Below, piece by piece: positions 7,574 through 51,810 of a stretch of 64,000 bases of DNA (positions are counted from its first letter, which is position 1; every line of letters begins with the position of its first letter). The stretch is from Colwellia sp. M166 (lineage in GTDB: Bacteria > Pseudomonadota > Gammaproteobacteria > Enterobacterales > Alteromonadaceae), in contig NZ_CP040755.1 in NCBI RefSeq assembly GCF_024585285.1, positions 3,596,001 to 3,660,000 on the forward strand. The letters are read 5' to 3'. The notes beneath the pieces were generated by a model. The model made no database searches. It was not told the origin of the DNA and was given only the letters and a program-made list of their open reading frames with translations. Position numbers and translations under genes: made by a program.

Positions 7574-9751
7574 ATGTTTAAGAAAATACTATTATTAGTT
7601 ATTGCCATCATGCTTGTGGCTTTGTTTTTTCATTATGATCTTAATCAATTACTGACATTAGAGGGATTGAAAGGCTCAATGGATCAGTTCGGCCAGTGGC
7701 GCGAACAATCACCATTATTAGTTGTTGGTGGCTTTTTTGCCCTTTATGTTTTAGTCGCGGCACTGTCATTACCTGGTGCCGCTATTTTAACCTTAGCTGC
7801 AGGCGCTTTATTTGGCTTAGTGGAAGGCTTTGTCGTGGTATCGTTCGCTTCAAGCCTTGGCGCGCTATTAGCCTTTTTAGTCTCGCGTTACTTATTACGC
7901 GATAGCATTAAAAGCAAATTCCCTGAGCGCTTAAAAGCCATTGATGAAGGCGTGCAAAAAGAAGGCGCTTTCTACCTATTTACTTTACGTTTAGTGCCTG
8001 TTTTTCCGTTCTTTTTAGTTAACTTACTGATGGGCGTTACTGGCATAAAAGCTTGGACGTTTTACTGGGTTAGTCAAATAGGTATGCTCGCTGGTACGGT
8101 GGTATATGTGAACGCGGGTACACAGTTAGCAGAAATAAACAGCTTATCTGGCATATTGTCAGCTAAACTCATTTTCTCTTTTGTGTTACTTGGGCTATTA
8201 CCCCTTATTGGTAAAGCGATTGTTAACAAAATTAAACAACGTAAAGTTTATAAAAAATGGCAAAAACCAAAAAGCTTTGACCGTAACCTATTGGTGATTG
8301 GTGCGGGTGCTGGTGGTTTGGTAACAAGCTATATCGCTGCGGCCGTTAAAGCAAAAGTAACGCTAATTGAAGCCGGCGAAATGGGCGGAGACTGTTTAAA
8401 TTATGGTTGTGTACCGAGTAAGGCAATCATTAAAAGTGCAAAAATAGTCGACCAAATTACCCATGGCGAACACTATGGTTTAGAGAACGCTACGCCACAG
8501 TTTTCTTTTAAGAAAGTGATGGCACGTGTACATCAAGTGATTGCCGATATTGCACCACACGACAGTGTTGAACGTTACACAGACTTAGGTGTAGAAGTGA
8601 TCAAAGGCTACGGAAAATTAATTAATCCGTGGACGGTAGAAATTAAGCTTAACGATGGCACCATGCAAACATTAACCGCTCGCAGTATTGTTATTGCCAC
8701 CGGTGCTCGTCCATTTGTGCCACCATTACCAGGTATTGAAACTAGTGGTTATGTGACTAGTGACACTTTATGGACAGAATTTGCCAAACTTGATACTGCA
8801 CCGAAAAAACTAGTGGTCTTAGGCGGCGGTCCTATTGGTAGTGAACTTGCGCAAAGTTTCGCTCGTTTGGGCTCACAAGTAATACAAATTGAAATGGCTG
8901 AGCGCATCATGATCAGAGAAGACCTTGAAGTCTCTGAATTTGCTAGCCAATCATTACAAAAAAGTGGCGTGAATATTTTAACTTCGCACCAAGCTTTGCG
9001 TTGTGAACAACGTGACGGTAAAAAATTCATCATGGTGAAAAACCTTAAGCACGAACAAGGTTCAGATCAAGAAGAAGAAATGGCCATTGAATACGACCAG
9101 TTACTATGTGCTGTTGGCCGCTCTGCGCGCTTGAAAGGCTACGGTCTTGAAGAGCTAGGAATAGAAACTAACCGTACTATTCAAACCAATGAATATTTAG
9201 AAACCTTATACCCGAACATCTTTGCCGCAGGTGACATTGTTGGTCCTTACCAATTTACCCATGTTGCCGCTCATCAAGGTTGGTACGCTGCAGTTAATGC
9301 TTTATTTGGCACCTTTAAGAAGTTTAAGGTCGATTACCGTGTTATTCCATGGGCAACCTTTATTGACCCAGAAGTTGCACGTGTAGGCATTAACGAACAA
9401 GAAGCCATTGAACAAGGTATCGATTATGAAATTACCCGTTTTGACTTTGAAGAGTTGGACCGAGCAATTACCGATAGTGCGGCCAATGGTTTTATTAAAG
9501 TGATCACACCTAAAGGTAAAGATAAAATACTTGGCGTTACTATTGTCTCTGAACATGCCGGTGATTTAATTGCTGAATTCGTATTAGCCATGAAGCATGG
9601 TTTAGGCTTAAATAAAATTTTAGGCACGATTCACAGCTACCCAACGTGGGCTGAAGGCAATAAATACGCCGCAGGTGAATGGAAGCGTAATCATGCACCA
9701 GAAACCGTTTTAAGCTGGTTAGAGAAGTTCCACACGTGGAGAAGAGGTTAA
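7574..9751 (+). CDS. TVP38/TMEM64 membrane domain fused to a pyridine nucleotide-disulfide oxidoreductase
   Basis: A 725-residue fusion. Residues 1-220 form a TVP38/TMEM64 (DedA-like, YdjX/YdjZ type) membrane domain with several hydrophobic segments and the family motif region LTLAAGALFGLVEGFVVVSFASSLGALLAF (split: LTLAAGALFGL, then VEGFVVVSFASSLGA). From about 237 a mercuric reductase-like flavoprotein begins: FAD motif GAGAGG at 243-248, redox pair C274/C279 in GGDCLNYGCVPSK, NAD motif VVLGGGPIGSELA, a GDIVGPYQFTHVAAHQG FAD site, and the C-terminal H-x-x-P...E of the partner subunit (HSYPTWAEGNKYA). All catalytic elements look intact. No mercury-binding N-terminal domain or vicinal C-terminal cysteines were seen, so mercury reduction is unlikely. 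AAGGA precedes the ATG. Substrate unknown. Confidence 0.9.
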   Translation: MFKKILLLVIAIMLVALFFHYDLNQLLTLEGLKGSMDQFGQWREQSPLLVVGGFFALYVLVAALSLPGAAILTLAAGALFGLVEGFVVVSFASSLGALLAFLVSRYLLRDSIKSKFPERLKAIDEGVQKEGAFYLFTLRLVPVFPFFLVNLLMGVTGIKAWTFYWVSQIGMLAGTVVYVNAGTQLAEINSLSGILSAKLIFSFVLLGLLPLIGKAIVNKIKQRKVYKKWQKPKSFDRNLLVIGAGAGGLVTSYIAAAVKAKVTLIEAGEMGGDCLNYGCVPSKAIIKSAKIVDQITHGEHYGLENATPQFSFKKVMARVHQVIADIAPHDSVERYTDLGVEVIKGYGKLINPWTVEIKLNDGTMQTLTARSIVIATGARPFVPPLPGIETSGYVTSDTLWTEFAKLDTAPKKLVVLGGGPIGSELAQSFARLGSQVIQIEMAERIMIREDLEVSEFASQSLQKSGVNILTSHQALRCEQRDGKKFIMVKNLKHEQGSDQEEEMAIEYDQLLCAVGRSARLKGYGLEELGIETNRTIQTNEYLETLYPNIFAAGDIVGPYQFTHVAAHQGWYAAVNALFGTFKKFKVDYRVIPWATFIDPEVARVGINEQEAIEQGIDYEITRFDFEELDRAITDSAANGFIKVITPKGKDKILGVTIVSEHAGDLIAEFVLAMKHGLGLNKILGTIHSYPTWAEGNKYAAGEWKRNHAPETVLSWLEKFHTWRRG

Positions 9752-9756
9752 TAGCC

Positions 9757-10629
9757 ATGAAGAGTTTAATAGCGAAGGTTAACTTAAACAAAGCACGGTC
9801 AACAGCAATACTAGCAATGACAAGGGCTAAATCTTTATCATTAGCTGTGTTGTTGCTGCTGAGCACCGTTTTTAGCGCCGTTACAACGGCGCAAGAAGCC
9901 TTGCATCAACCATGGCAGGCTTTATTAACTCAACACGTTTTGCCAATTAATGACGGTCATTCAAGCCAAGTAAATTATGCCGGCATGAAAACAGATCATG
10001 CAAAGCTAACGGCTTATTTAACAGCGCTTGGTAATATTGATAAGCAGACATTTCAGCAATGGCCTGCACCTCAGCAATTGTCGTTTTTGATCAACGCTTA
10101 CAATGCATGGACAGTTGAGCTTATTTTAACGGCTTACCCTGATATTAAGTCGATAAAAGATCTGGGTAGTTTTTTTAGTTCGCCATGGAGTAAGAAGTTT
10201 ATTGTGTTACTTGGTGAAACACGCAGCTTAGATAATATTGAGCATGAGTTAATTCGTGGTGATAATAAATATGCTGACCCACGTATTCATTTTGCCGTTA
10301 ACTGCGCCAGCATTGGCTGTCCTGCTTTGCGTGAAGAAGCGTATAGCGCTGACGAACTAGAGCAACAGCTGACTGAGCAAACGACACGCTTTTTAAGCGA
10401 CAAAAGCCGGAATCGTTTTAATGAAGATACAATGGAGCTTTCCGCTATTTTTAAGTGGTATGGCGATGACTTCAGACAAGGCTTTCGTGGTAGTAACTCT
10501 TTACCTGCTTTTGTATTGCTCTACGGTGAAGCATTGAACTTAACACCAGCGCAACAAGCACGATTAACGTCAGAAGATATCGATACCAATTTCTTGAATT
10601 ATGATTGGGCGTTAAATGCCGTTAGGTAA
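9757..10629 (+). CDS. secreted DUF547 protein
   Basis: Product of 290 residues from the ATG at 9757, chosen because GAAGAGG lies 9 bases upstream; a GTG at 9736 would overlap the previous gene. The N-terminus is a long basic region followed by a hydrophobic core (LSLAVLLLLSTVFSAVTTAQ), a probable signal peptide. The body has DUF547 hallmarks: VNYAGM, LSFLINAYNAWTVELIL and IHFAVNCASIGCPALREEAYSADELEQQL. DUF547 proteins are periplasmic or lipid-linked and of unknown biochemical function; they often sit next to TVP38 and flavoreductase genes, as here. Five bases separate it from the fusion upstream, and a terminator follows. Confidence 0.87.
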   Translation: MKSLIAKVNLNKARSTAILAMTRAKSLSLAVLLLLSTVFSAVTTAQEALHQPWQALLTQHVLPINDGHSSQVNYAGMKTDHAKLTAYLTALGNIDKQTFQQWPAPQQLSFLINAYNAWTVELILTAYPDIKSIKDLGSFFSSPWSKKFIVLLGETRSLDNIEHELIRGDNKYADPRIHFAVNCASIGCPALREEAYSADELEQQLTEQTTRFLSDKSRNRFNEDTMELSAIFKWYGDDFRQGFRGSNSLPAFVLLYGEALNLTPAQQARLTSEDIDTNFLNYDWALNAVR

Positions 10630-40681: not shown

Positions 40682-42595
40682 ATGAAGGAAACCTCGCCAC
40701 TTGATGATGTGAGAGCATGTTACAACGTACGCCATTGGAGCCAAGGATATTTTGGCATTAATGACGGCGGCGATGTTTACGTATCACCAGTTCATGACAA
40801 TAAAGCTCTGACGGTTAATTTGAGTACTATTGTTGAAAGAATTCAAGATAAAGGCTTAACATTACCGGTGTTGGTGCGTTTTCCACAAATTCTTCATCAT
40901 CGGGTTAATAGCTTGTGTGAAGCGTTTAATCATGCCATTGCGCAATATGGTTACAAAGAAAAGTATCTCTTAGTTTATCCGATTAAAGTTAATCAGCAAC
41001 GTGAAGTTGTTAACGAGATATTAGCCAGTCAGTATGATAAAGAAGTAAAACAGCTGGGTTTAGAGGCCGGCAGTAAAGCAGAATTACTGGCGGTTTTGGC
41101 TCTGGCTGACAAAGTATCTTCTGTTATTGTCTGTAATGGCTATAAAGACAGAGAATACGTTCGTCTTGCGTTAATTGGTGAAAAGCTAGGGCACAAAGTT
41201 CATATCGTTTTAGAAAAAATGTCTGAACTTGAAATGGTCTTAACTGAAGCAGAAAAGCTTAATGTTAAACCTCGATTAGGGCTGCGTGTACGCTTGGCTT
41301 CACAAGGAAAAGGCAAGTGGCAAGCAAGTGGTGGAGAAAAATCTAAATTTGGTTTATCAGCCTCGCAAATTATTAAAGTGATAGATGTTTTAAAACAAGA
41401 AGACAAGCTAGATACCTTGACCTTGGTACATTTTCACTTAGGCTCGCAAATTGCGAATATTAGAGATGTAAGACTTGGCGTCAGCGAAGCGGCTAGATTT
41501 TATTGTGAATTACGCCAACTTGGTGCACATATTACGTGTATGGATGTTGGCGGCGGCTTGGCGGTTGATTATGACGGCACACGCAGTCAATCTCATAATT
41601 CGATGAATTATAGTTTAGCTGAGTATGCCAATAACATCGTATACACCATAGGTGATATTTGTAAGGCGTATGAGCAACCTATGCCGATGATTATTTCTGA
41701 ATCGGGGCGCTCATTGACAGCTCATCATGCGGTGTTGATTTCGAATGTCATCGGCGCGGAAAGCTACGAGCCTGAAACATTAGTCACACCAGAAAGCACT
41801 GATAATACCTTGTTAAATAACATGTGGAAGTCATGGCAACAGTTACATGAAGGGATTGATGATAGAGCGTTAATTGAAATTTATCATGACACCCAAAATG
41901 ATGTTAGTGAAGTGCATCATCAATTTGCGTTAGGGCTGGTCAATTTGTCTCAACGCGCATGGGCTGAGCAAATTAATTTGCGTATTTGTTATGAATTAAA
42001 TCAGTTAATGGATGTTAAAAATCGCTTTCATCGTCCGATAGTGGACGATTTAATGGAAAAATTAGCCGCGAAGTACTTTGTTAATTTTTCCTTATTTCAA
42101 TCATTACCGGATGCGTGGGGAATCGATCAAGTATTTCCCGTATTGCCGTTAAATCGATTAGATAGCAAAGATAAAAAGCGCGCTATTTTGCTGGATATTA
42201 CTTGTGACTCTGACGGTACGATTGATCATTACGTTGATGGTCAAGGTATAGAAAGCACCTTATTGGTTCCTCAGTGGCAACAAGATGAACCATATTATAT
42301 GGGATTTTTCCTGGTTGGAGCTTATCAAGAGATTTTAGGCGATATGCATAATCTTTTTGGTGATACGCACAGTGCTGTCGTGTTTTTAGAGGAAGACGGG
42401 GAAATTAATATTTCTGAAATTAATGAAGGAGATATGGTTGAAGATATGCTCAATTATGTGCATTTAGATGCTGAAGATTTCAAGAAAACTTATGAAATGT
42501 TAGTGAATGCTAAGTTGCCTGAAAGTGAGCGAGAAGAGATATATGCTGAGTTAGTTGCCGGTTTAAACGGCTATACTTATTTGGAAGACTTGTAG
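40682..42595 (+). CDS. speA: biosynthetic arginine decarboxylase
   Basis: PLP enzyme that converts arginine to agmatine, first step of putrescine synthesis. 637 residues, the usual length. Motifs: [15 protein letters not shown], the PLP lysine in [80 protein letters not shown], and the late cysteine region [25 protein letters not shown] lies upstream of the ATG. speB begins 11 bases downstream, so agmatine is handed to the next enzyme of the same operon. Confidence 0.97.
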
Positions 42596-42606: not shown

Positions 42607-43551
42607 ATGAAAAATATTTTTCAGCAAGTAGATAATTCAATATATTCCAATGCGATGACGTTTTTACGTCAGCCACTGTCAACTAATCCGGTCAATAGTG
42701 ATGCTGATATTGTAATATTAGGGCTGCCATTTGATATGGCTACAACAGGGCGCTCAGGCGCCCGCATGGGACCTACCGCGATTAGACAGGCCTCAGTGAA
42801 CTTAGCGTGGGAAGGAAAACGTTTTCCTTGGCCGTTTAGTTTAACGCGCCATACCAACATTGTTGATGCGGGTGATTTAGTTTATAGCTGTGGTGATGCT
42901 GCACAATTTTGTGATTTGGTTGAAGCTGCAGCTTCGCAATTACTGGCTGCGAATAAAACCATTTTAGCGCTTGGTGGCGATCACTTTGTCACCTTGCCGC
43001 TATTGAGAGCTTACGCAAAAAAATTTGGTAAAATGGCCTTAATTCATTTTGATGCGCATACCGATACTTATAGTAATGGCAGCAAATATGATCATGGCAC
43101 CATGTTTTTTCATGCCCCTAATGAAGGCATTATTGATAAAGATGCTTCCATTCAAATTGGTATTCGCACCAACTACAAAAAGAAAGATCATGGCTTTGAG
43201 GTGATAGATGCACCACAAGCCAATGATCTTGGTGTGGAAGAAATAACGCAGCGGATACGCGAGCGCGTAAAAAATTTACCGGTGTATTTAACCTTTGATA
43301 TTGACTGTTTAGACCCTGCATTTGCACCTGGTACCGGTACGCCGGTGTGCGGTGGCTTAACAACCGATAAAGTGCTGAAAATATTAAGAGGTTTATCAGG
43401 GCTCAATATTATTGGCATGGACGTTGTTGAAGTAGCACCAAGCTATGATAATAGCGACGTTACTGCGTTAGCTGCGGCAACCATAGGCGTTGAGTTGATG
43501 CACTTGTGGACAACTAAGCATAAATTAGCGCATAAAAGCGTGAATAAATAG
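42607..43551 (+). CDS. speB: agmatinase
   Basis: Manganese ureohydrolase producing putrescine and urea from agmatine. 314 residues. Metal ligands are visible: [12 protein letters not shown] (His), [11 protein letters not shown] (Asp, His, Asp), and [26 protein letters not shown] (Asp, Asp). The agmatinase-type [11 protein letters not shown] follows. Full length, intact. It is 11 bases after speA, and a long terminator follows. Putrescine from this pair could feed polyamine conjugation, but no spermidine genes are in the window. Confidence 0.97.
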
Positions 43552-43625: not shown

Positions 43626-43664
43626 TAATAAACAGCGCAATACATTTAATTGCGCTGTTTATTA
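43626..43664. terminator. bidirectional terminator between speB and the RMD1 gene
   Basis: A perfect 16-bp stem: TAATAAACAGCGCAAT at 43626-43641 with ATTGCGCTGTTTATTA at 43649-43664, loop ACATTTA. Located between convergent genes, so it can serve both. The T run is weak. Confidence 0.75.
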
Positions 43665-43740: not shown

Positions 43741-44583
43741 TTAAGTTATTTTTCTGATCTCTTCCGTAAAATATATAACGATTTCAATAGCGATCAAGAC
43801 AATAATAATCCATTCCAAAAATGACGAATGTTGATGCTTTTGCTCATCAGCTAACATTTCGAATAATTCATGAATCGTAGCGAGCTTTTTAGATAATAAA
43901 TCAACACGTTGATGAATTTCTAGATAACGAACAACGGCATTATAAACTGATTCAAACTCTGGATATTCCCAGAAAAAATCAGGGGTATCTAATAAACCAT
44001 AATGCAAAATAATATCGCTTTTAGTACTAAATAGCGTGCCTCTTATTTTCGCAATATCTTTACGGTTTAAGGCTATTTTTCCCGTCTTAGCCAATGCTTC
44101 TGGCAAATGTGAATAATCAGTAATGGTATTTTGTGCTTTTAATTCATACTCCATCAGCTTTATTGATTGCGCCAACGCATGACTGATGGCTAATCGTGTA
44201 AGCGGATTTTTGTCAGGTACATTGATAGTGTCTTTACTGATTTTTATGTCAGCGCTGAAGGCAAAACGAAAATGCTCTTCTATATTCTGTAGTTGGCTAT
44301 TTTCTTGGCGTAACAAGCGATTGATTAACGCTTGACGTTCATCTTCATCGACAGCCCAAAAAACAATGACGCCATAATCAAATAACCAGTATTCACCTGT
44401 TGGTAAAGCAACTTGAATGGCATCTCTGTATCGAACAGCGCGTTCACTAATCGATTTATCCGCTGAAATTAATTCAGCAGATGCGTCGTCATTAAGGTTG
44501 TAAACGGATAATCTATCGTGACTGAAAGAAGCCGTTTCTTCAGATGTCAGGGTTAAGCTATTGGTACTCATGTTTATACTCAT
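43741..44583 (-). CDS. RMD1/YagE (DUF155) family membrane protein
   Basis: 280 residues. Family core: YRDAIQVALPTGEYWLFDYGVIVFWAVDEDERQALINRLL, then ALAQSIKLMEYELKAQNTI, and FFWEYPEFESVYNAVVRYLEIHQRVDLLSKKLATIHELFEMLADEQ. One C-terminal membrane segment (SSFLEWIIIVLIAIEIVIYF) anchors it, with the bulk cytoplasmic. In yeast Rmd1/Rmd8 and related mitochondrial proteins the domain is linked to organelle translation or meiotic division; the bacterial function is unknown. It lies 20 bases downstream of the ATP-grasp gene and is surely in its operon. Confidence 0.85.
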   Translation of the reverse strand: MSINMSTNSLTLTSEETASFSHDRLSVYNLNDDASAELISADKSISERAVRYRDAIQVALPTGEYWLFDYGVIVFWAVDEDERQALINRLLRQENSQLQNIEEHFRFAFSADIKISKDTINVPDKNPLTRLAISHALAQSIKLMEYELKAQNTITDYSHLPEALAKTGKIALNRKDIAKIRGTLFSTKSDIILHYGLLDTPDFFWEYPEFESVYNAVVRYLEIHQRVDLLSKKLATIHELFEMLADEQKHQHSSFLEWIIIVLIAIEIVIYFTEEIRKIT

Positions 44584-44603
44584 TTTACAGTTTATTTTTG
44601 TTG

Positions 44604-46115
44604 TTAATTTACGGTATTTTTGCGGCGTTCCATTTTGCGCAAAAATTCATTCATAATTATTCGGTATAATTCATCACCTGAATATCCATCCTCAACACCA
44701 CTATCAATGCTTGGGTTGTCATTAATTTCGATGACATAGCCTTGGTTGTTTATTTCTTTTATATCGACACCATAAAAACCATCACCAATTAACTTGGTCG
44801 ACTTTATTGCCGCCTCGATAACAACTTTAGGCACTTCAAATGTCGGTAATGTTGTGAAGTTTCCAGAAGCAACTCGTGACTTGCCGTGTTGATATATCTG
44901 CCAATGATTGCGCACCATAAAATATTTACAGGCATAAATTGGCTTGTGGTTTAAAATGCCAATGCGCCAGTCAAACTCGGTGTACAAATACTCTTGAGCC
45001 AGCAATAAAGACGAGCGTTGAAATAACCGTTGTAGGGCGTTATCAAGCTCGGTTTTATTTTTGACTTTTTCTACTCCAATAGAAAAAGCACCATCAGGTA
45101 TTTTTAGTACAAGTGGGTAGCCTAAAATGGCTACTTTACTGTCAATCTGGTCTTGCTCTGCAATACTGAGTATAAAAGTTTTAGGGGCATTTACTTTGTT
45201 TACCGCAAATAAATCAGCAAGGTAGACTTTGTTCGTACAATGCAAAATTGAAGTAGGATCATCAATAACCACCAAACCTTCTAACTCGGCTTTTTTGGCA
45301 AATCGATAGCTAAAGTTATCAATGGATGTCGTGGTGCGAATAAAAAGGCCATCAAATTCAGGTAAGCGCAGGTAGTCTTGCTGTGTTATCAATTCACAAT
45401 CAATACCTAATGATTTACCAGCAGCAATAAATTTTTTTAATGCCGAGTTATCAGAAGGTGGTAGTTTCTCTTGAGGATCGACTAAAATAGCTAAGTCAAA
45501 ACGATAGTTTTTACTTGCAGGTTTTTTACGCCATACTTTTCCACTAAAGTTATCTAAGGCATCAGCAAATTCCTCAGCTTCTCGTTCGTTTAATGAATCA
45601 GGGCTTACCGCATCAATAGCTTGTACTTGCCAGCCACCATTAAAGTTCAACGTAATACGCAAAATAGGATATGGAAAATGTTCGAACACCTTACGCGCCA
45701 ATTCCTCATATTCAGATTGAGCTGTTCTACCAAAATAACTAACCAAATGAATTGGCATTAACGGCGTAACATCAGGCACTTGCCAATTAAAGGCTGCTTT
45801 AGAGAGCAACTTTGGCATAAAGCTTAATGTGAGATGGGTCAATTCCTGCTGGCTGAGATCATTTAGCGTGCTAATTGACGGAATAACATTATGGCCTCGG
45901 GCTTCAGCTATCAGTGAGCAATAGTAACCTAGCGATAAATACGCGTGGCTTTTACATAAATTTATCACTCTTAAGCGTGATTTTTTGCCTGCTTTAGCGG
46001 TAAGGTTTATTGGATACTGATGAGCAAGAAATTGCTCAAAAGTTATAACCTGTTCAGGGTTTAAATGGCACTCCCAATCTGCTTGACTATCAATAACTAT
46101 CATGGTGTTTGGCAT
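44604..46115 (-). CDS. RimK-type ATP-grasp ligase with N-terminal RLAN domain
   Basis: About 503 residues from ATG 46115 (a TTG at 46127 and an ATG at 46103 are alternatives; the ribosome site is unclear). The first 200 residues match the N-terminal domain seen on a group of RimK-like proteins (MIVIDSQADWECHLN ... INLCKSHAYLSLGYYCSLIAEARGH). The ATP-grasp part has VLKIPDGAFSIGVEKV, LLAQEYLYTEFDWRIGIL, YGVDIKEIN and the metal-binding VIEINDNPSIDSG, all intact. RimK adds glutamates to protein S6; this subgroup has no proven substrate. Likely forms C-N bonds on a peptide or protein. First gene of the RMD1 operon, divergent from the GNAT-C39 gene. Confidence 0.87.
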   Translation of the reverse strand: MPNTMIVIDSQADWECHLNPEQVITFEQFLAHQYPINLTAKAGKKSRLRVINLCKSHAYLSLGYYCSLIAEARGHNVIPSISTLNDLSQQELTHLTLSFMPKLLSKAAFNWQVPDVTPLMPIHLVSYFGRTAQSEYEELARKVFEHFPYPILRITLNFNGGWQVQAIDAVSPDSLNEREAEEFADALDNFSGKVWRKKPASKNYRFDLAILVDPQEKLPPSDNSALKKFIAAGKSLGIDCELITQQDYLRLPEFDGLFIRTTTSIDNFSYRFAKKAELEGLVVIDDPTSILHCTNKVYLADLFAVNKVNAPKTFILSIAEQDQIDSKVAILGYPLVLKIPDGAFSIGVEKVKNKTELDNALQRLFQRSSLLLAQEYLYTEFDWRIGILNHKPIYACKYFMVRNHWQIYQHGKSRVASGNFTTLPTFEVPKVVIEAAIKSTKLIGDGFYGVDIKEINNQGYVIEINDNPSIDSGVEDGYSGDELYRIIMNEFLRKMERRKNTVN

Positions 46116-46350
46116 AATAAAGACCAATAAAAATTTCCTGCAGTATGAGCGTCAACAAAAAAATATCAAACGTATTATTTTGTTGTTATTGATAAAAAAA
46201 ATTACGTATAACTTTATAAGATGAACAGTATATTATTCGCGCTTATAGCCCTTAATATAGTCACTCTGGTAAATATAACTGTTTGCATACGGTGTTAATT
46301 GCCAACTTATTTACTATGAAATTAATTGTGCATTAGTGAGTTTAAAAGTA

Positions 46351-47472
46351 ATGAACCTCAATACCCATTCACCTGTTGAAACAATAAACATTGTGCCCGC
46401 ATCATTAACGCATTTAGACGCCTTAATAAGCCTAGAAAATACGTGCTTTAGCTCAGATAAATTAAGTCGTCGAAGTTTTAAACGCTTCATTACTAATGCT
46501 CAAAGTGTTTTTTTCGTGGTACTAATGGCTGATGAAGTTGTTGGCTATTTACTCACAATATTTCATCGTGGTACACGTTTAGCTCGGCTATATTCTATGG
46601 CGGTATCGCCTCAGTATCGAGGGCGAGGTATTGCGCGTTCATTGATGAAAAAAGGTGAATTGGCAGCAGAAGAAAAAGGCGCACACTATTATCGCTTAGA
46701 AGTAAGTACTGAAAATACCTTAGCAATTAACCTTTATCATTCGTTGGGCTTTAAAGAATTCAAACTGATCAAGCAATACTATCAAGATCATACCGATGCG
46801 CTGCGAATGCAAAAGCGTATTCGATATTATCAACGTTCAAGTGTTCACACCGTTATTCCTTGGTTTGCTCAAAGCACACCATTTACTTGTGGCCCAGCGT
46901 CACTGATGATGGCAATTGCGGGATTAAAAAAAGGCTATACATTCTCACTTGAAGAAGAGTTAGCAATATGGCGTGAAGCAACCACTATTTACATGACCTC
47001 AGGGCATGGTGGTTGCCACCCATTAGGCTTAGCATTAGCAGCTAAAGCACGAGGTGTTGAAGCGCAGGTATGGATAAACAGTACCGAGCCCTTATTTGTT
47101 GACGGTGTTCGTAATGAAGATAAAAAAAACATTATTACAACAGTGCACCATCATTTTGTTCGGCAGTCTGTCAATGCAAAACTACCTATACACTATGAAA
47201 ACATTAGTACAGATATTATTAAAAAAGCCTGCAATGAAGGGGCTTTTACCATGATATTAATTAGCACTTACCGCATGGACAAAAAAAAAGCACCACACTG
47301 GGTTGTGGTGAGTGGTTATGATGAAAAGTGTTTTTATCTTCATGATCCTGATCCTAATGAACACGACCAAGATCAGGTTGATTGTCAATATCTTCCTATT
47401 GCGCATCAAGACTTTGAGCGAATGTCGGTGTTTGGTTCAAATAGGATGCGTACAGCGATTGTTCTCAAATAA
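46351..47472 (+). CDS. GNAT acetyltransferase fused to peptidase C39-like domain
   Basis: 373 residues from ATG 46351; a GTG at 46336 is an alternative. Residues 10-155 are a RimI-like GNAT domain with the acetyl-CoA loop in YSMAVSPQYRGRGIARSLM and YHSLGFKEF. From about 168 a C39-like papain-fold domain follows: the nucleophile cysteine is C180 in QSTPFTCGPASLMMAI, the histidine in APHWVVVSGYD, and the following Asp in FYLHDPDP. Both active sites look complete. The combination implies acetylation and cleavage or transacylation on the same substrate, probably a peptide. Divergent from the ATP-grasp gene, 235 bases apart, with which it co-occurs in related bacteria as far as I recall. Confidence 0.87.
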   Translation: MNLNTHSPVETINIVPASLTHLDALISLENTCFSSDKLSRRSFKRFITNAQSVFFVVLMADEVVGYLLTIFHRGTRLARLYSMAVSPQYRGRGIARSLMKKGELAAEEKGAHYYRLEVSTENTLAINLYHSLGFKEFKLIKQYYQDHTDALRMQKRIRYYQRSSVHTVIPWFAQSTPFTCGPASLMMAIAGLKKGYTFSLEEELAIWREATTIYMTSGHGGCHPLGLALAAKARGVEAQVWINSTEPLFVDGVRNEDKKNIITTVHHHFVRQSVNAKLPIHYENISTDIIKKACNEGAFTMILISTYRMDKKKAPHWVVVSGYDEKCFYLHDPDPNEHDQDQVDCQYLPIAHQDFERMSVFGSNRMRTAIVLK

Positions 47473-47652
47473 CTGCTCAGCAGAGCCTTAACGTTAAGTT
47501 AATGAAAAATATTGATTGAAGACCTGAATTTTTTTCATTTTGATTCTTTGATATTTAGTGACATTATCTCGCTAACTTCATTGAATTAACGGCCTTTGTT
47601 AGCATTAAACTGTTGAAGCTATTAACACTCCCATTTTCTAGTAGGAAAAAAT

Positions 47653-47892
47653 ATGAAAGATTTAGCATTGGTGATAATCATTTTAACTATGTTAACTTGC
47701 TTGAGTTTGAATGTAGAAATTAGATCATCGATGGATGCAAAACCAGAGATACGAGATAAAACCAAGCTAGTGACGTTAGATGATGCAAGCCCAGTAGCAT
47801 TAGATAATACAACACTAAGTGCAGGCACTGAATGTACGAAAGCACAAGATACTGAAAGTGTTAATTGTCTAAACACGGCTGCGAACCCTTAA
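47653..47892 (+). CDS. small exported peptide, possible substrate of the modification locus
   Basis: 79 residues. AGGAAAAAAT precedes the ATG, a strong ribosome site. The first 20 residues are hydrophobic (KDLALVIIILTMLTCLSLNV), a signal peptide or anchor. The rest is polar, rich in T, D, E, A, with two cysteines near the end (GTECTKAQDTESVNC). No family is recognised. It lies 180 bases after the GNAT-C39 gene and ends in a clear terminator, so it may be the last gene of that unit or an independent gene. Confidence 0.65.
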   Translation: MKDLALVIIILTMLTCLSLNVEIRSSMDAKPEIRDKTKLVTLDDASPVALDNTTLSAGTECTKAQDTESVNCLNTAANP

Positions 47893-48001
47893 TTAAGGCA
47901 CATTGCTAGCGTTTAATTTAGCAGTGGGCTGTTGAGCTAATATACTGTCGGATTTCAATCTGTCTCTGTTTTTCAATTGTAATTTTTCAAAAGCAATAAC
48001 T

Positions 48002-48029
48002 AAGCCTCACCGTAATGTGAGGCTTTTTT
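48002..48029 (+). terminator. rho-independent terminator after the small exported peptide
   Basis: AAGCCTCAC at 48002-48010 pairs with GTGAGGCTT at 48017-48025 around CGTAAT, and TTTT follows, giving six T at 48024-48029. Confidence 0.85.
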
Positions 48030-48509: not shown

Positions 48510-49223
48510 ATGTTGTACTCTAAAAAAATTATTGCCGTTTTAAAGGCTAGCCTATTAGTGCTTTCGGTATCAATTGTTCCAAACACTTATGCAGGTCTCA
48601 TTAGTCTTTCTTCTGACTATATAGTTAATGTGTCACTTGACGGTGATCATAATTCAGCCGGTACAGTGAATGGCTTAGTTGGTAATGAAGTTATTGCCCG
48701 AGAACGTCTAGTTCAATCTCAAGAAGATATGCGCATTGCTTCTTTTATCCAGTTTGATATGAGTTTATTTACATTAGAGTTAGTTAACGCTTCAGGTTTT
48801 TCAGCCTTATTTGAAGCAGACTTTACCGAACGTTTAAATACCATTAATAACATGAGTGTGATGTTAGGAGAAGTGGGCAGTGTTTGGAATAATGTGGCAG
48901 GAACTTTACCTTTATTTGAAATGGCGGGATTGTCAGCAAATTCGGCTTCATTAGTAGATAATATTAAAGATGGCGATTTTGGCACCTACTCTCTTGATGT
49001 AACTGCAATTGTTCGTAGTTGGGTAAGTGGAACGTCAGTAAATAATGGCTTTGTTGTGTATGGTGCAGCACCGGTTTTTCAAGGAGCAGGTTTTAACAAC
49101 ATATCATTGGAAGTAACAACTCCTACGTTATCAGCAGTTACTGTATCTGAGCCGACTACACTTGTTATTTTTGGCTTAGGAATGATCGCTTTAGCATCAC
49201 GTCGATTTAAAAAACAATTTTAA
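48510..49223 (+). CDS. PEP-CTERM sorting domain protein, DNRLRE-like
   Basis: 237 residues. AAAGGAAAA precedes the ATG. Signal peptide (LKASLLVLSVSIVPNTYAG). The middle (LVQSQEDMRIASFIQFDMSLF ... GDFGTYSLDVTAIVRSWVSGTSVNNGFVVYGA in parts) resembles DNRLRE domains, beta-rich modules of secreted proteins. The C-terminus is a PEP-CTERM tripartite signal: SEP motif (SEPTTLVIFGLG), hydrophobic segment (LVIFGLGMIALA), basic tail (SRRFKKQF). Such proteins are processed by an exosortase EpsH/XrtA and attached or released at the surface. No exosortase is in the window. Terminator follows. Confidence 0.88.
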   Translation: MLYSKKIIAVLKASLLVLSVSIVPNTYAGLISLSSDYIVNVSLDGDHNSAGTVNGLVGNEVIARERLVQSQEDMRIASFIQFDMSLFTLELVNASGFSALFEADFTERLNTINNMSVMLGEVGSVWNNVAGTLPLFEMAGLSANSASLVDNIKDGDFGTYSLDVTAIVRSWVSGTSVNNGFVVYGAAPVFQGAGFNNISLEVTTPTLSAVTVSEPTTLVIFGLGMIALASRRFKKQF

Positions 49224-49411: not shown

Positions 49412-50107
49412 TTAGGTATCTAATGTAATCAATTCAGCTTTATTGATTGGCTTATGGCTCATTGGTTTATCTATTTGCTGAGCGATTAAGTTTTGTGGAA
49501 TATGAGGCTGTAACAAAGGCACAAACAGCTCAACATCGGTTAATGTGCTATCAAGCCAATGATCAATGATATTCTCATCTTGAGGCAGTATTAGCGGCAT
49601 GGCTTTACTGTGAATATGTTGTAGTTTCTTATGTGCAGGTAAGGTGATCACTGAGCATGAGGTTTTTACTTCACCTGTTCGGTTATTAATCCAATCTCGA
49701 GATAAACCACCCAGCAATAGCCCTCCATGTTCGGCTTGCATATCAAAATAATGTACCGGCTTTTTATTGATAAATTCAGTTTCACCGAAACCTTTTACCG
49801 CAATAACACAGCGTGAATGTCGGTAGGCTTGATAGCCAGCACTGTTCGGTGTGTTTAACTTATCGTATCGGGTATTAAATGAGGTGTACTTTGAAGGTTT
49901 AAAGCCATTTTCAGTGCTATCTAGTAATAACCACCAAATAGCATTTTCAACAACACGGCTATTAGCTTTTTCTCTAACAATAGCAACAGTATCAGTCGCT
50001 TTGACAAAATGCTTGTTGATGGGTCTATCAACCATTTTATTGATTTTTAAACTGGTATAGAGCTTTCTCACTCCACCATCAAAAGTCGCATTAAATCTGC
50101 CGCACAT
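49412..50107 (-). CDS. SOS response-associated peptidase (SRAP/HMCES/YedK family)
   Basis: Forms a stable covalent link with abasic sites in single-stranded DNA. 231 residues. After Met removal the catalytic Cys2 is exposed (MCGRFNATFDGG). The arginine/asparagine region NTRYDKLN, the glutamate in GFGETE and the histidine in LQHIHSKAMPLIL correspond to the YedK active-site set. It lies 33 bases downstream of umuC on the same strand and is probably part of the umuD-umuC transcript, so under LexA control. The RMP of the usual HxRMP segment is replaced by KAMP. Confidence 0.88.
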   Translation of the reverse strand: MCGRFNATFDGGVRKLYTSLKINKMVDRPINKHFVKATDTVAIVREKANSRVVENAIWWLLLDSTENGFKPSKYTSFNTRYDKLNTPNSAGYQAYRHSRCVIAVKGFGETEFINKKPVHYFDMQAEHGGLLLGGLSRDWINNRTGEVKTSCSVITLPAHKKLQHIHSKAMPLILPQDENIIDHWLDSTLTDVELFVPLLQPHIPQNLIAQQIDKPMSHKPINKAELITLDT

Positions 50108-50139
50108 AATTTATCCTCTCTGGATACTAATAAACTATT

Positions 50140-51396
50140 TTAGCAGGTTATTTTAGGGATATGCTGCCAATTAGTGGTGAATTGTCGGCTAAGAAAGTGC
50201 CGCTTCATATTCCACTTTTGAGTTTGTCCTGCACTCGCAACATTAATACTACCAGCACCGTAACGTTTGTTAATATTATCAACACATTTCATCAGTGCAG
50301 GATTGTTATTATCAACATCAAATAAATCACCTTGCTGAAATGTATTACTGGCCAACTCGATAGCGCCCACACCACAACGATAAAAGTTAACACCCGATTG
50401 ATATATTTTCGGTAAAACTAATGAAACCGCTTGTGCAAGTTGGCTAGTATTATCGGTGGGAATAGCAAAAGGGTAAACAAGCGCTTGTTTATAGTAATCA
50501 TTATCGTGTGGTGAATTTGCTGCAAACACCATTAGCTTTTTAACTTGTGATGACTGTTGGCGCAGCTTTTTAGCAACAATGCTAGCATGGCTTGCTAATG
50601 CGGCATTAAGCAGGTTGTAATCACTTATTCGTTGGCCAAAGCTACGGGTTGAAAATATCTCTTTTTTAGGCGTTTTAACTTCATCCCATGATAGGCAGCT
50701 AGTACCATTTAACTCACTTACGGTGCGTTCGGTTACCACACTAAATTGCTGACGAATATTTTTAGGGTTTTGCTTCGCTAAATCTAATGCGGTATGAATA
50801 TTTTGTAGGGCGAGTTTTTTCGTTATGCGATTACCGATACCCCATACGTCAGCTGTATTCATACGTTGTAAAATTGCTGATGCACTGTCTTTTGTGTCAA
50901 TAACTGCCACACCATCGAACCCTGATAACTTTTTAGCAGCATGATTAGCTGCTTTGGCTAATGTTGCCGTTGTACCAAAACCAACGCCAACAGGTAAGCG
51001 AGTTTCTTTCCATATAGCTTTACGTATTTGGTGGCCGTATTCATACCAATTAGTAATCGCTTTATGAAAGTTATCAAAGTATAAAAAGGATTCATCGATA
51101 GAGTAAATGTATTGGTTATCACAAAATCGACTGATCACTGTCATCATACGCTCTGACAAGTCAGCATACAGTTCGTAATTTGATGAACGAATAATAACCC
51201 CATGTTTGTGTAATAAATCTTTAATTTGAAAATAAGGTGTAAATTTAGGAATACCAAGGCGCTCAGCAATGGGGCAAGCAGCGCAAATGCAACCGTCGTT
51301 ATTGGTTAAAACTACAACGGGTTTATTGCGAATACTAGGGTCGAATACTTTTTCAGCCGAGGCATAAAAAGAGGTAGCATCAACTAAGCCATACAT
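50140..51396 (-). CDS. umuC: DNA polymerase V catalytic subunit UmuC
   Basis: Y-family translesion polymerase active as UmuD'2C. 418 residues, complete. The catalytic acids are in LVDATSFYAS and YSIDESFLYF; GVGFGTTATLAKAANHAAKK and the HhH region (MNTADVWGIGNRITKKLALQNI) follow, with the little-finger domain (EIFSTRSFGQRISDYNLL ... LVLPKIYQSGVNFYRCGVGAIEL in parts). It overlaps umuD by 13 bases, giving translational coupling. Close to ICE and plasmid-borne versions as well as to chromosomal ones. Confidence 0.95.
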   Translation of the reverse strand: MYGLVDATSFYASAEKVFDPSIRNKPVVVLTNNDGCICAACPIAERLGIPKFTPYFQIKDLLHKHGVIIRSSNYELYADLSERMMTVISRFCDNQYIYSIDESFLYFDNFHKAITNWYEYGHQIRKAIWKETRLPVGVGFGTTATLAKAANHAAKKLSGFDGVAVIDTKDSASAILQRMNTADVWGIGNRITKKLALQNIHTALDLAKQNPKNIRQQFSVVTERTVSELNGTSCLSWDEVKTPKKEIFSTRSFGQRISDYNLLNAALASHASIVAKKLRQQSSQVKKLMVFAANSPHDNDYYKQALVYPFAIPTDNTSQLAQAVSLVLPKIYQSGVNFYRCGVGAIELASNTFQQGDLFDVDNNNPALMKCVDNINKRYGAGSINVASAGQTQKWNMKRHFLSRQFTTNWQHIPKITC

Positions 51397-51797
51397 GCTT
51401 TTAATTCTGGTGCTTGGTGATGTAGTCGAATTGAACGAGTAACAACCCCTTCTAGTTGAAAGTCATCACTTGGTAAAATTGCTATCGGTTGATGATGTTT
51501 AGATGCTGACAGTAAACGAGCTTGTTGCTTATCAATGATCTTGCAAACAAAGCAGCCGTTATAATTAGCGACAATAACATCACCATTTCGCGCAGTAAGC
51601 GCTCTATCAACAATTAATAAATCACCATCAAAGATCCCCACATCCTGCATTGAAACACCTGAAGCTTGACCAATAAAAGTAGCATTAGGGTGACGGATCA
51701 GGAGTTTATCAAGTGATAATCCTAGTTCTTTGTATTCTGCTGCGGGTGATTCAAAACCAGAAACCCCTGCTTCTATATAGATTGGAATAACTTTCAT
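51384..51797 (-). CDS. umuD: DNA polymerase V accessory subunit UmuD
   Basis: 137 residues from ATG 51797 (a TTG 9 bases upstream is unlikely). Self-cleaving S24 peptidase: cleavage site region VSGFESPAAEY, where S-G replaces the C-G of E. coli; catalytic Ser in GVSMQDVGIFDGDLLIVD; general base Lys in CFVCKIID. RecA-stimulated removal of the N-terminus yields UmuD'. LexA box 14 bases upstream. First gene of umuD-umuC-SRAP. Confidence 0.95.
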   Translation of the reverse strand: MKVIPIYIEAGVSGFESPAAEYKELGLSLDKLLIRHPNATFIGQASGVSMQDVGIFDGDLLIVDRALTARNGDVIVANYNGCFVCKIIDKQQARLLSASKHHQPIAILPSDDFQLEGVVTRSIRLHHQAPELKACMA

Positions 51798-51810
51798 AAC
51801 ACTCAAGGTA

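Follow-up and report, generated by a model that had tools for sequence, protein, structure and literature searches.

RMD1 (DUF155) proteins of bacteria recur in linkage with a RimK-like ATP-grasp ligase bearing an N-terminal RLAN domain and with a fusion of a GNAT acetyltransferase to a C39-like cysteine peptidase, and it is this partnership of RMD1 with the ligase pair that looks new. The locus from which the analysis began lies in a stretch of 64,000 nucleotides of Colwellia sp. M166 (assembly GCF_024585285.1, contig NZ_CP040755.1, positions 3,596,001 to 3,660,000), referred to below as the window. By analogy with RimK and RimB the system may be a cytosolic module, tethered to the membrane, that modifies tails in a RimK-like way and brings its own peptidases, a reading to which we give a probability of about 0.45. 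What was observed directly, and carries it, is the order of the genes, their domain identities, the conservation of catalytic residues, and co-occurrence together with linkage that recurs.

In the window the RMD1 gene (43741..44583, minus strand, 280 residues; recognised by PF02582, hydropathy and a structure model) is separated by 20 bp from the ligase gene (44604..46127, minus strand, 507 residues from TTG; recognised by PF14401, Foldseek and invariant catalytic residues), and the GNAT-C39 gene (46336..47472, plus strand, 378 residues from GTG; PF00583 and PF11814 in one fusion) diverges from them across an intergenic region at 46128..46335. The starts in the open reading frame (ORF) list are probably not the true ones: judged from the alignments and the sequence, an ATG at 46115 is preferred for the ligase (503 residues) and an ATG at 46351 for GNAT-C39. 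These three frames and a 79-residue ORF were all present where the original prediction for this DNA had placed them. A second genome of the genus (G001) has ligase and RMD1 frames that overlap by 8 bp, and there too GNAT-C39 is divergent.

Co-occurrence and linkage of RMD1 with the ligase

Three samples were searched, comprising 60 relatives, 299 genomes across the phylum and 197 genomes of the window's order. Within the order 41 genomes had RLAN and 13, from seven genera, had RMD1; every one of the 13 carried RLAN, as against 28 of the 184 others (Fisher p = 2.4e-10 by genome and 6.1e-6 by genus, relatedness being ignored here as in the other such tests). The two genes lay within 5 kb in three of the 13 (the window's genome G000, G018 and G482) and were not on the same contig within that distance in the other ten. 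Across the phylum RLAN was present in 20 of 32 RMD1 genomes, with p values of 5e-9 for genomes and 7e-6 for genera, and in 13 of the 20 both lay within 5 kb. A midpoint-rooted tree of 48 RMD1 sequences, read without support values, drew on 45 of the 47 RMD1 genomes (all but G075 and G205, whose loci had not been fetched) and three named loci, and fell into three groups. One group of 29 contained 24 from genomes with RLAN, the five exceptions all coming from the window's genus, and in a group of ten RLAN was present in nine, the exception (G265) being 86% complete.

The arrangement of the genes varied widely. RMD1 follows the ligase, with GNAT-C39 divergent, in the window and in loci L200 and L145; in L209, L218 and L219 GNAT-C39 precedes these two genes on their strand; and the order is ligase, GNAT-C39, RMD1 in L208. 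DUF2817 (described below), GNAT-C39 and RMD1 make up one run in L130 (strain HdN1) and L176 (Methylomicrobium sp. wino1, where the ligase lies upstream), while RMD1 and DUF2817 share a strand convergent with the ligase-GNAT-C39 pair in L210, L226, L227 and L228, small ORFs intervening in the last two. GNAT-C39, DUF2817 and RMD1 stand together in L211 with the ligase 2.1 Mb away, and in L242 RMD1 lies between GNAT-C39 and a ligase-GNAT pair. RMD1 is thus linked to the system in six gene orders or more, and repeated rearrangement with proximity kept is hard to ascribe to chance. Genes in these loci were placed by codon-scored calling together with tblastn; the calling still errs, for example leaving the ligase unlabelled in L223, L231 and L238 and RMD1 in L236, and ligase and GNAT positions were checked by tblastn for L222-L225 and L237-L239.

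A second likely partner came from a protein cluster with members no more than 3.5 kb from the ligase in 17 of 120 loci (L120-L239), which proved to be DUF2817 (PF10994, 383 bits, two members scanned). Across 18 aligned sequences it keeps the motifs HGxEG, DLNRN, DxH and LExGT, which we take, from general knowledge of M14 peptidases, to be the zinc ligands, carboxylate-binding residues and catalytic glutamate. Twelve of the 120 loci have RMD1 no further than 3.5 kb from the ligase, and ten of the twelve (L130, L145, L176, L209, L210, L218, L219, L226, L227 and L228) have DUF2817 there as well; L200 and L208 have RMD1 near the ligase and no DUF2817 within 3.5 kb. Of the 299 genomes across the phylum 40 had full-length DUF2817, weak partial matches being left out, and RLAN was present in 25 of the 40.

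Conservation of the ligase and GNAT-C39 pair

As a unit, the ligase and GNAT-C39 are widespread. Among the 60 relatives RLAN was found in 18 genomes and DUF3335, the C39-like domain, above cut-off in 18, with both strong in 17; G022 had RLAN without DUF3335, the domain was broken in G011, and G012 and G046 gave weak matches below the cut-off. Across the phylum RLAN was found in 56 genomes and DUF3335 in 47, and the tabulation of co-occurrence that the original prediction had proposed places RMD1 with RLAN beyond chance by Fisher's test with relatedness ignored, and DUF3335 in 46 of the 56 RLAN genomes. The two lay within 5 kb in 44 of these 46, which span 17 families. Five of the ten RLAN genomes without DUF3335 were read (G061, G073, G209, G266 and G272), and in all five a GNAT lacking the C39 domain adjoins the ligase. 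Eighty named ligase loci, chosen as best matches and hence biased to near relatives, were compared over flanks of up to 8 kb (shorter on small contigs). GNAT or GNAT-C39 was matched in 74, upstream on the opposite strand in 72 of these and less than 500 bp away in 62 of the 72; the six without a match include L123, L193 and L194, which have the full 8 kb upstream. Named carriers include Marinobacter, Marinomonas, Hahella, Dyella, Rhodanobacter and Pseudomonas. Two RLAN ligases per genome were seen in G114, G118 and G201, and in G118 (L224, L225), the one of these that was read, the two copies have different neighbours, GNAT-C39 for one and GNAT alone for the other, which suggests specialised paralogues.

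The pair is probably already known, and a ligase adjoining a GNAT-papain-like protein is presumably what the Pfam entry text for RLAN describes. A 2023 classification of papain-like proteinases describes fusion to GNAT domains as frequent among DUF3335 members, with reference to Iyer et al. 2009 (PMC10318531). The original prediction had stated that no function was established for the set; the enzyme pair had in part been noticed before, and what holds of the statement is the apparent novelty of the RMD1 partnership. No paper linking RMD1 with an RLAN ligase was found in the titles, abstract openings and term counts of the open-licence matches listed. The pair of Iyer et al. (2009) has the same two proteins, usually divergent, and the same general prediction of peptide ligation or acetylation, the adjacency of the ligase being taken from the Pfam entry text. 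The GNAT described here differs in that it can occur without the C39 domain. To our knowledge, RMD1 and DUF2817 do not figure as recurrent partners in the description of the RLAN/GNAT-papain pair.

Catalytic domains

The RLAN domain of the ligase scored 144.7 bits against PF14401 (Pfam cut-off 25) and is followed by an ATP-grasp region for which two Pfam models, RimK (29.8 bits) and Ddl_C (31.7 bits), were above cut-off. Residues K300, K342, D386, R388, D455, E467 and N469 were conserved in 21/21 sequences of alignment A1, as seen in alignment with RimK and LysX, and which of them bind ATP or metal follows from the RimK literature. The AlphaFold model (predicted local distance difference test score, pLDDT, 81.3; predicted template modelling score, pTM, 0.78) matched RimK, LysX and ArgX in the PDB (LysX/ArgX as 3vpd and 3vpb) with Foldseek template modelling scores (TM-scores) by target length of 0.74-0.80. 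On these grounds the ligase looks functional.

The GNAT-C39 protein was above gathering score for both of its parts, Acetyltransf_1 (PF00583, 64.8 bits) and DUF3335 (PF11814, 291.3 bits). Its GNAT, of the RimI/Ard1-like kind, fell narrowly under the cut-off for rimI, the S18-alanine N-acetyltransferase (TIGR01575, 84.3 against 86.4), and its nearest PDB relatives are N-terminal acetyltransferases (6wqc, SSO0209, RimI and Naa10). Alignment A2 has 24 rows, two of them GNAT-only proteins; in the 22 domain-bearing rows Q179, C185 and H321 of the C39-like part are kept throughout and the position of D337 is D in 20 and E in two. This enzyme too looks functional. The domain identities originally proposed for the ligase, RMD1 and GNAT-C39 were borne out by Pfam and NCBIfam, with RMD1, RLAN, GNAT and DUF3335 all above Pfam gathering scores, and the belief that the active sites are intact agrees with the conservation of the ligase residues and of the C39-like Q, C and H.

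The RMD1 protein and its neighbours

RMD1 of the window, a member of the RMND1/Sif2-Sif3/Mrx10 family, scored 166.5 bits against the DUF155 domain (PF02582), above the gathering score, and has by hydropathy a single hydrophobic segment near its C-terminus, at about residues 252-276. Its structure model (pLDDT 83, pTM 0.75) gave weak matches in the PDB, none with E < 0.001, the top rows being TATA-binding proteins with MRS2/CorA among others; a viral fold library gave one match below 0.001, an uninformative Hyperionvirus protein of unknown function (TM-score 0.30). Kinship with CorA/MRS2 was considered and rejected: the PDB matches are weak, and because comparison of the family profiles gave a probability of 0.4% no homology is claimed. 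A CorA-family protein does occupy, 5-13 bp after the ligase, the slot filled elsewhere by RMD1 in ten of 17 named Pseudomonas loci (L172, L173, L178, L181, L182, L187, L189, L192, L195 and L197, near 9490-10430). It is confined to that one genus and has GMS instead of the GMN that CorA channels usually carry.

A human relative is the mitochondrial RMND1. It is described as a member of an inner-membrane complex, with DUF155 and a transmembrane segment, that has been proposed to tether mitoribosomes near sites of mRNA maturation; a role in mitochondrial translation is reported and data on its exact role are described as still limited (PMC7564844). The accessible portions of four further papers (PMC2922099, PMC4431377, PMC9368063 and PMC3597751) had no bearing on bacterial RMD1. 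Both proteins share the DUF155 domain and a transmembrane segment; RMD1 of the window type differs in being bacterial and linked to modifying enzymes.

Another neighbour was seen in five genomes of one genus (g34: G049, G360, G376, G391 and G405; loci L213, L241, L243, L247 and L249), where epmA, the elongation factor P (EF-P) beta-lysine ligase, lies just downstream of RMD1 and RLAN is elsewhere in the genome. The G049 protein scored 393 bits against TIGR00462 and the other four are 72-88% identical to it; in L241 the gap is 34 bp. A possible link to translation is a lead only, because the adjacency was seen in one lineage.

A tail-modification module and the alternatives

The catalytic steps, their order, the substrate and the role of the tether are all inferred. 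The RLAN-ATP-grasp ligase would spend ATP on coupling an amino acid, or an amine like it, to a peptide or protein at its C-terminal carboxylate, in the manner of its fold relatives RimK, LysX and ArgX. GNAT would acetylate an N-terminal amine, either on that substrate or on a partner substrate, and the C39-like cysteine peptidase, together in many relatives with the putative M14-like zinc carboxypeptidase DUF2817, would trim or reverse the modification. RMD1, by its C-terminal membrane segment, would hold at the inner membrane either the reaction or the substrate on which it acts. A precedent is RimK-RimB (RimABK), in which a ligase and a dedicated peptidase tune a protein tail through glutamylation of ribosomal protein S6 (PMC11957791, PMC12239564). 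The likeness lies in a RimK-fold ATP-grasp ligase alongside a peptidase. The module described here differs in adding an RLAN domain, a distinct HWQIxxH loop, a GNAT and a membrane RMD1, and in the folds of its peptidases, and its ligase does not reach the RimK cut-off. Taken with the tethering proposed for RMND1, the precedent makes a membrane-tethered module the most economical reading.

A number of observations weigh against it. Most concern RMD1: a single family (f50) supplies 12 of the 20 phylum-sample genomes with both genes and 11 of the 13 in which they are linked; RMD1 is absent from the flanks of 77 of the 80 named ligase loci and present in three; a separate group of the RMD1 tree consists of nine sequences, all from genomes without RLAN; and G075 and G205 have RMD1 without RLAN. 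Five genomes of the window's own genus (G002, G004, G005, G008 and G009) also have RMD1 without the ligase, a state that perhaps came about by one or a few events, and this outliving of the ligase is the chief evidence against strict dependence. DUF2817 was not found in the window's genome by the family search that found it elsewhere. A scan for a cis-encoded substrate clustered 728 small ORFs lying close to the core genes in the named loci and in eight more (ORFs overlapping larger genes excluded); its eight widest clusters included no small ORF within 1.5 kb that was widely shared. As for the ligase, its top Foldseek match by E-value is a D-Ala-D-Ala ligase (TM-score by target length 0.69), its score against the RimK subfamily TIGR00768 is far under the cut-off (63 against 143.4), and its invariant HWQIxxH loop has HW as in LysX, unlike the aligned RimK sequences.

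On the strength of the RMD1 observations the functional unit might be the ligase and GNAT(-C39) alone, chance or a common ecology accounting for the linkage or co-inheritance of RMD1. The five genomes that keep RMD1 alone, the ten of 13 order-level genomes in which it lies beyond 5 kb or on another contig, its adjoining epmA instead in one genus and the predominance of one family among the linked cases would all fit. Co-occurrence in 13/13 genomes of the order, significant by genome and by genus with relatedness ignored, the multiplicity of gene orders and the group-level split of the RMD1 tree speak for a real association, however, and we consider a bystander role rather improbable.

The loop and the missed RimK cut-off bear on the donor: glutamate is not assumed, because the HW is that of LysX and not the RimK pattern, and taken together they mean that the donor amino acid is not readable from the sequence. 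The S6 ligase model PRK10446 was likewise not met (30.3 against 331). The highest NCBIfam score was to TIGR02144 (LysX/ArgX), a likeness to the LysX/ArgX-LysW system that extends to the fold and to the HW of the loop, but at 64.7 bits it is far under the cut-off of 275.6. No LysW-like protein was noticed among the scanned neighbours of the ligase, LysW not having been searched for as such.

The same enzymes could instead serve a small-molecule pathway, the ligase making a di- or oligopeptide, GNAT capping it to give an N-acetyl peptide metabolite or osmolyte and the peptidases recycling it. N-acetylglutaminylglutamine synthetase (Ngg) unites GNAT and ATP-grasp chemistry in one fused protein, a make-up that the present pair resembles; many named carriers belong to marine genera (Marinobacter, Marinomonas, Hahella), and D-Ala-D-Ala ligases are among the closest folds of the ligase. 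The Ngg model TIGR03103 does touch GNAT, but at 24.8 bits against a cut-off of 569 and over the GNAT part alone. Dyella, Rhodanobacter and Pseudomonas are carriers as well, the nearest PDB relatives of GNAT work on protein N-termini, RimK, LysX and ArgX act on protein tails, and a membrane-anchored partner would be unexpected. We regard a small-molecule product as somewhat unlikely, yet as a serious rival to the tail-modification module.

History of the locus in the genus and the speA-speB neighbourhood

The ligase was found in two of 17 sampled genomes of the window's genus (G000 and G001), one of the 17 being 66% complete. Two others, G011 and G012, have no RMD1 and retain, some 1.6 and 2.8 kb beyond speB and at a site matching that of the window, decayed fragments of the ligase and GNAT-C39 (L206 8513-8886, L207 8135-8547). 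The history of the system within the genus looks like one of loss. In the window speA (40682-42595) and speB (42607-43551) come before RMD1, and the original prediction had imagined that they might supply a polyamine or amino-acid donor. Agmatine or putrescine would then be the amine used by the ligase, for which the adjacency in the window, the remnants past speB and the position of RMD1 beside speA in G004, G005 and G008 could be cited. The idea found no support on comparison: neither speA nor speB was found in the fetched flanks of any of the 80 named ligase loci, and G001 has all three genes with no speAB within its 19-kb stretch. The speAB neighbourhood seems old in the genus, its adjacency is genus-level synteny kept even where the ligase is absent or decayed, and a polyamine donor is scarcely credible.

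Small ORFs and flanking features

The 79-residue ORF (47653..47892, plus strand) has a hydrophobic N-terminus and may or may not be a gene, let alone one of the system. It gave no family match in Pfam or NCBIfam and, among loci L001-L199, matched only locus L012 of its own genome. Such an ORF, lying downstream of a protein with a C39-like domain, raises the possibility of a ribosomally synthesised and post-translationally modified peptide (RiPP) with its precursor encoded in cis, ATP-grasp and C39-like domains being components of such pathways as a matter of general knowledge. The absence of matches outside its own genome argues otherwise, as does the narrowness of the widest small-ORF clusters: six of the eight did not extend beyond Dyella and Rhodanobacter plus a few metagenome-assembled genomes (MAGs) that were either related or unplaced, the widest, a small membrane ORF, coming from those two genera, a MAG of the Lysobacteraceae and a single unplaced MAG, and the other two represent a cold-shock-like gene region in two loci. 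The C39 model of bacteriocin-processing ABC transporters, PF03412, was also unmet (14.5 against 22) and the transporter domain is absent from GNAT-C39. A RiPP is thus very improbable. The original prediction had proposed a peptide or protein tailoring set with a small exported peptide as a component; the ligase, GNAT-C39 and RMD1 gained support as a set from co-occurrence and repeated linkage, and the peptide was not conserved in the loci searched.

Terminator-like stem-loops were found by consensus scan alone 3' of the 79-residue ORF (48002..48025, no strand assigned) and 3' of RMD1 (43626..43664, minus strand, 16 pairs), six being found in the region against a shuffle mean of 3.5. Promoter-like matches across the whole region were fewer than in shuffles (nine against a mean of 16.8). 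A role in defence was considered and set aside, the four proteins of the window and one DUF2817 protein having matched no family of the PADLOC anti-phage models at E 0.001. Beside the locus, and seemingly unrelated to it, is a PEP-CTERM protein at 48510-49223 (DNRLRE-domain match of 30, just short of the cut-off of 34). At 49412-51806 a minus-strand run of SRAP, UmuC-like and UmuD-like (S24) genes makes up an SOS-type cluster.

Implications for the RMD1 family

It is possible to go further and to suppose that the group of RMD1 proteins containing that of the window serves as inner-membrane receptor for a RimK/RimI-like machine by which ribosomes or nascent proteins are marked, and that mitochondrial RMND1 kept the tethering half after loss of the enzymes, although we hold this to be quite improbable. 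The RMD1 found just upstream of epmA, whose product modifies EF-P, is of the same group. For the RLAN/GNAT-C39 pair the gain is two likely partners, RMD1 and DUF2817, which narrow its chemistry to peptide ends. For DUF155 a specific hypothesis is offered, namely membrane tethering of a tail-modification reaction, and a bacterial RMD1 that tracks a RimK-like ligase and an N-acetyltransferase would provide a tractable setting for the human mitochondrial disease protein RMND1.

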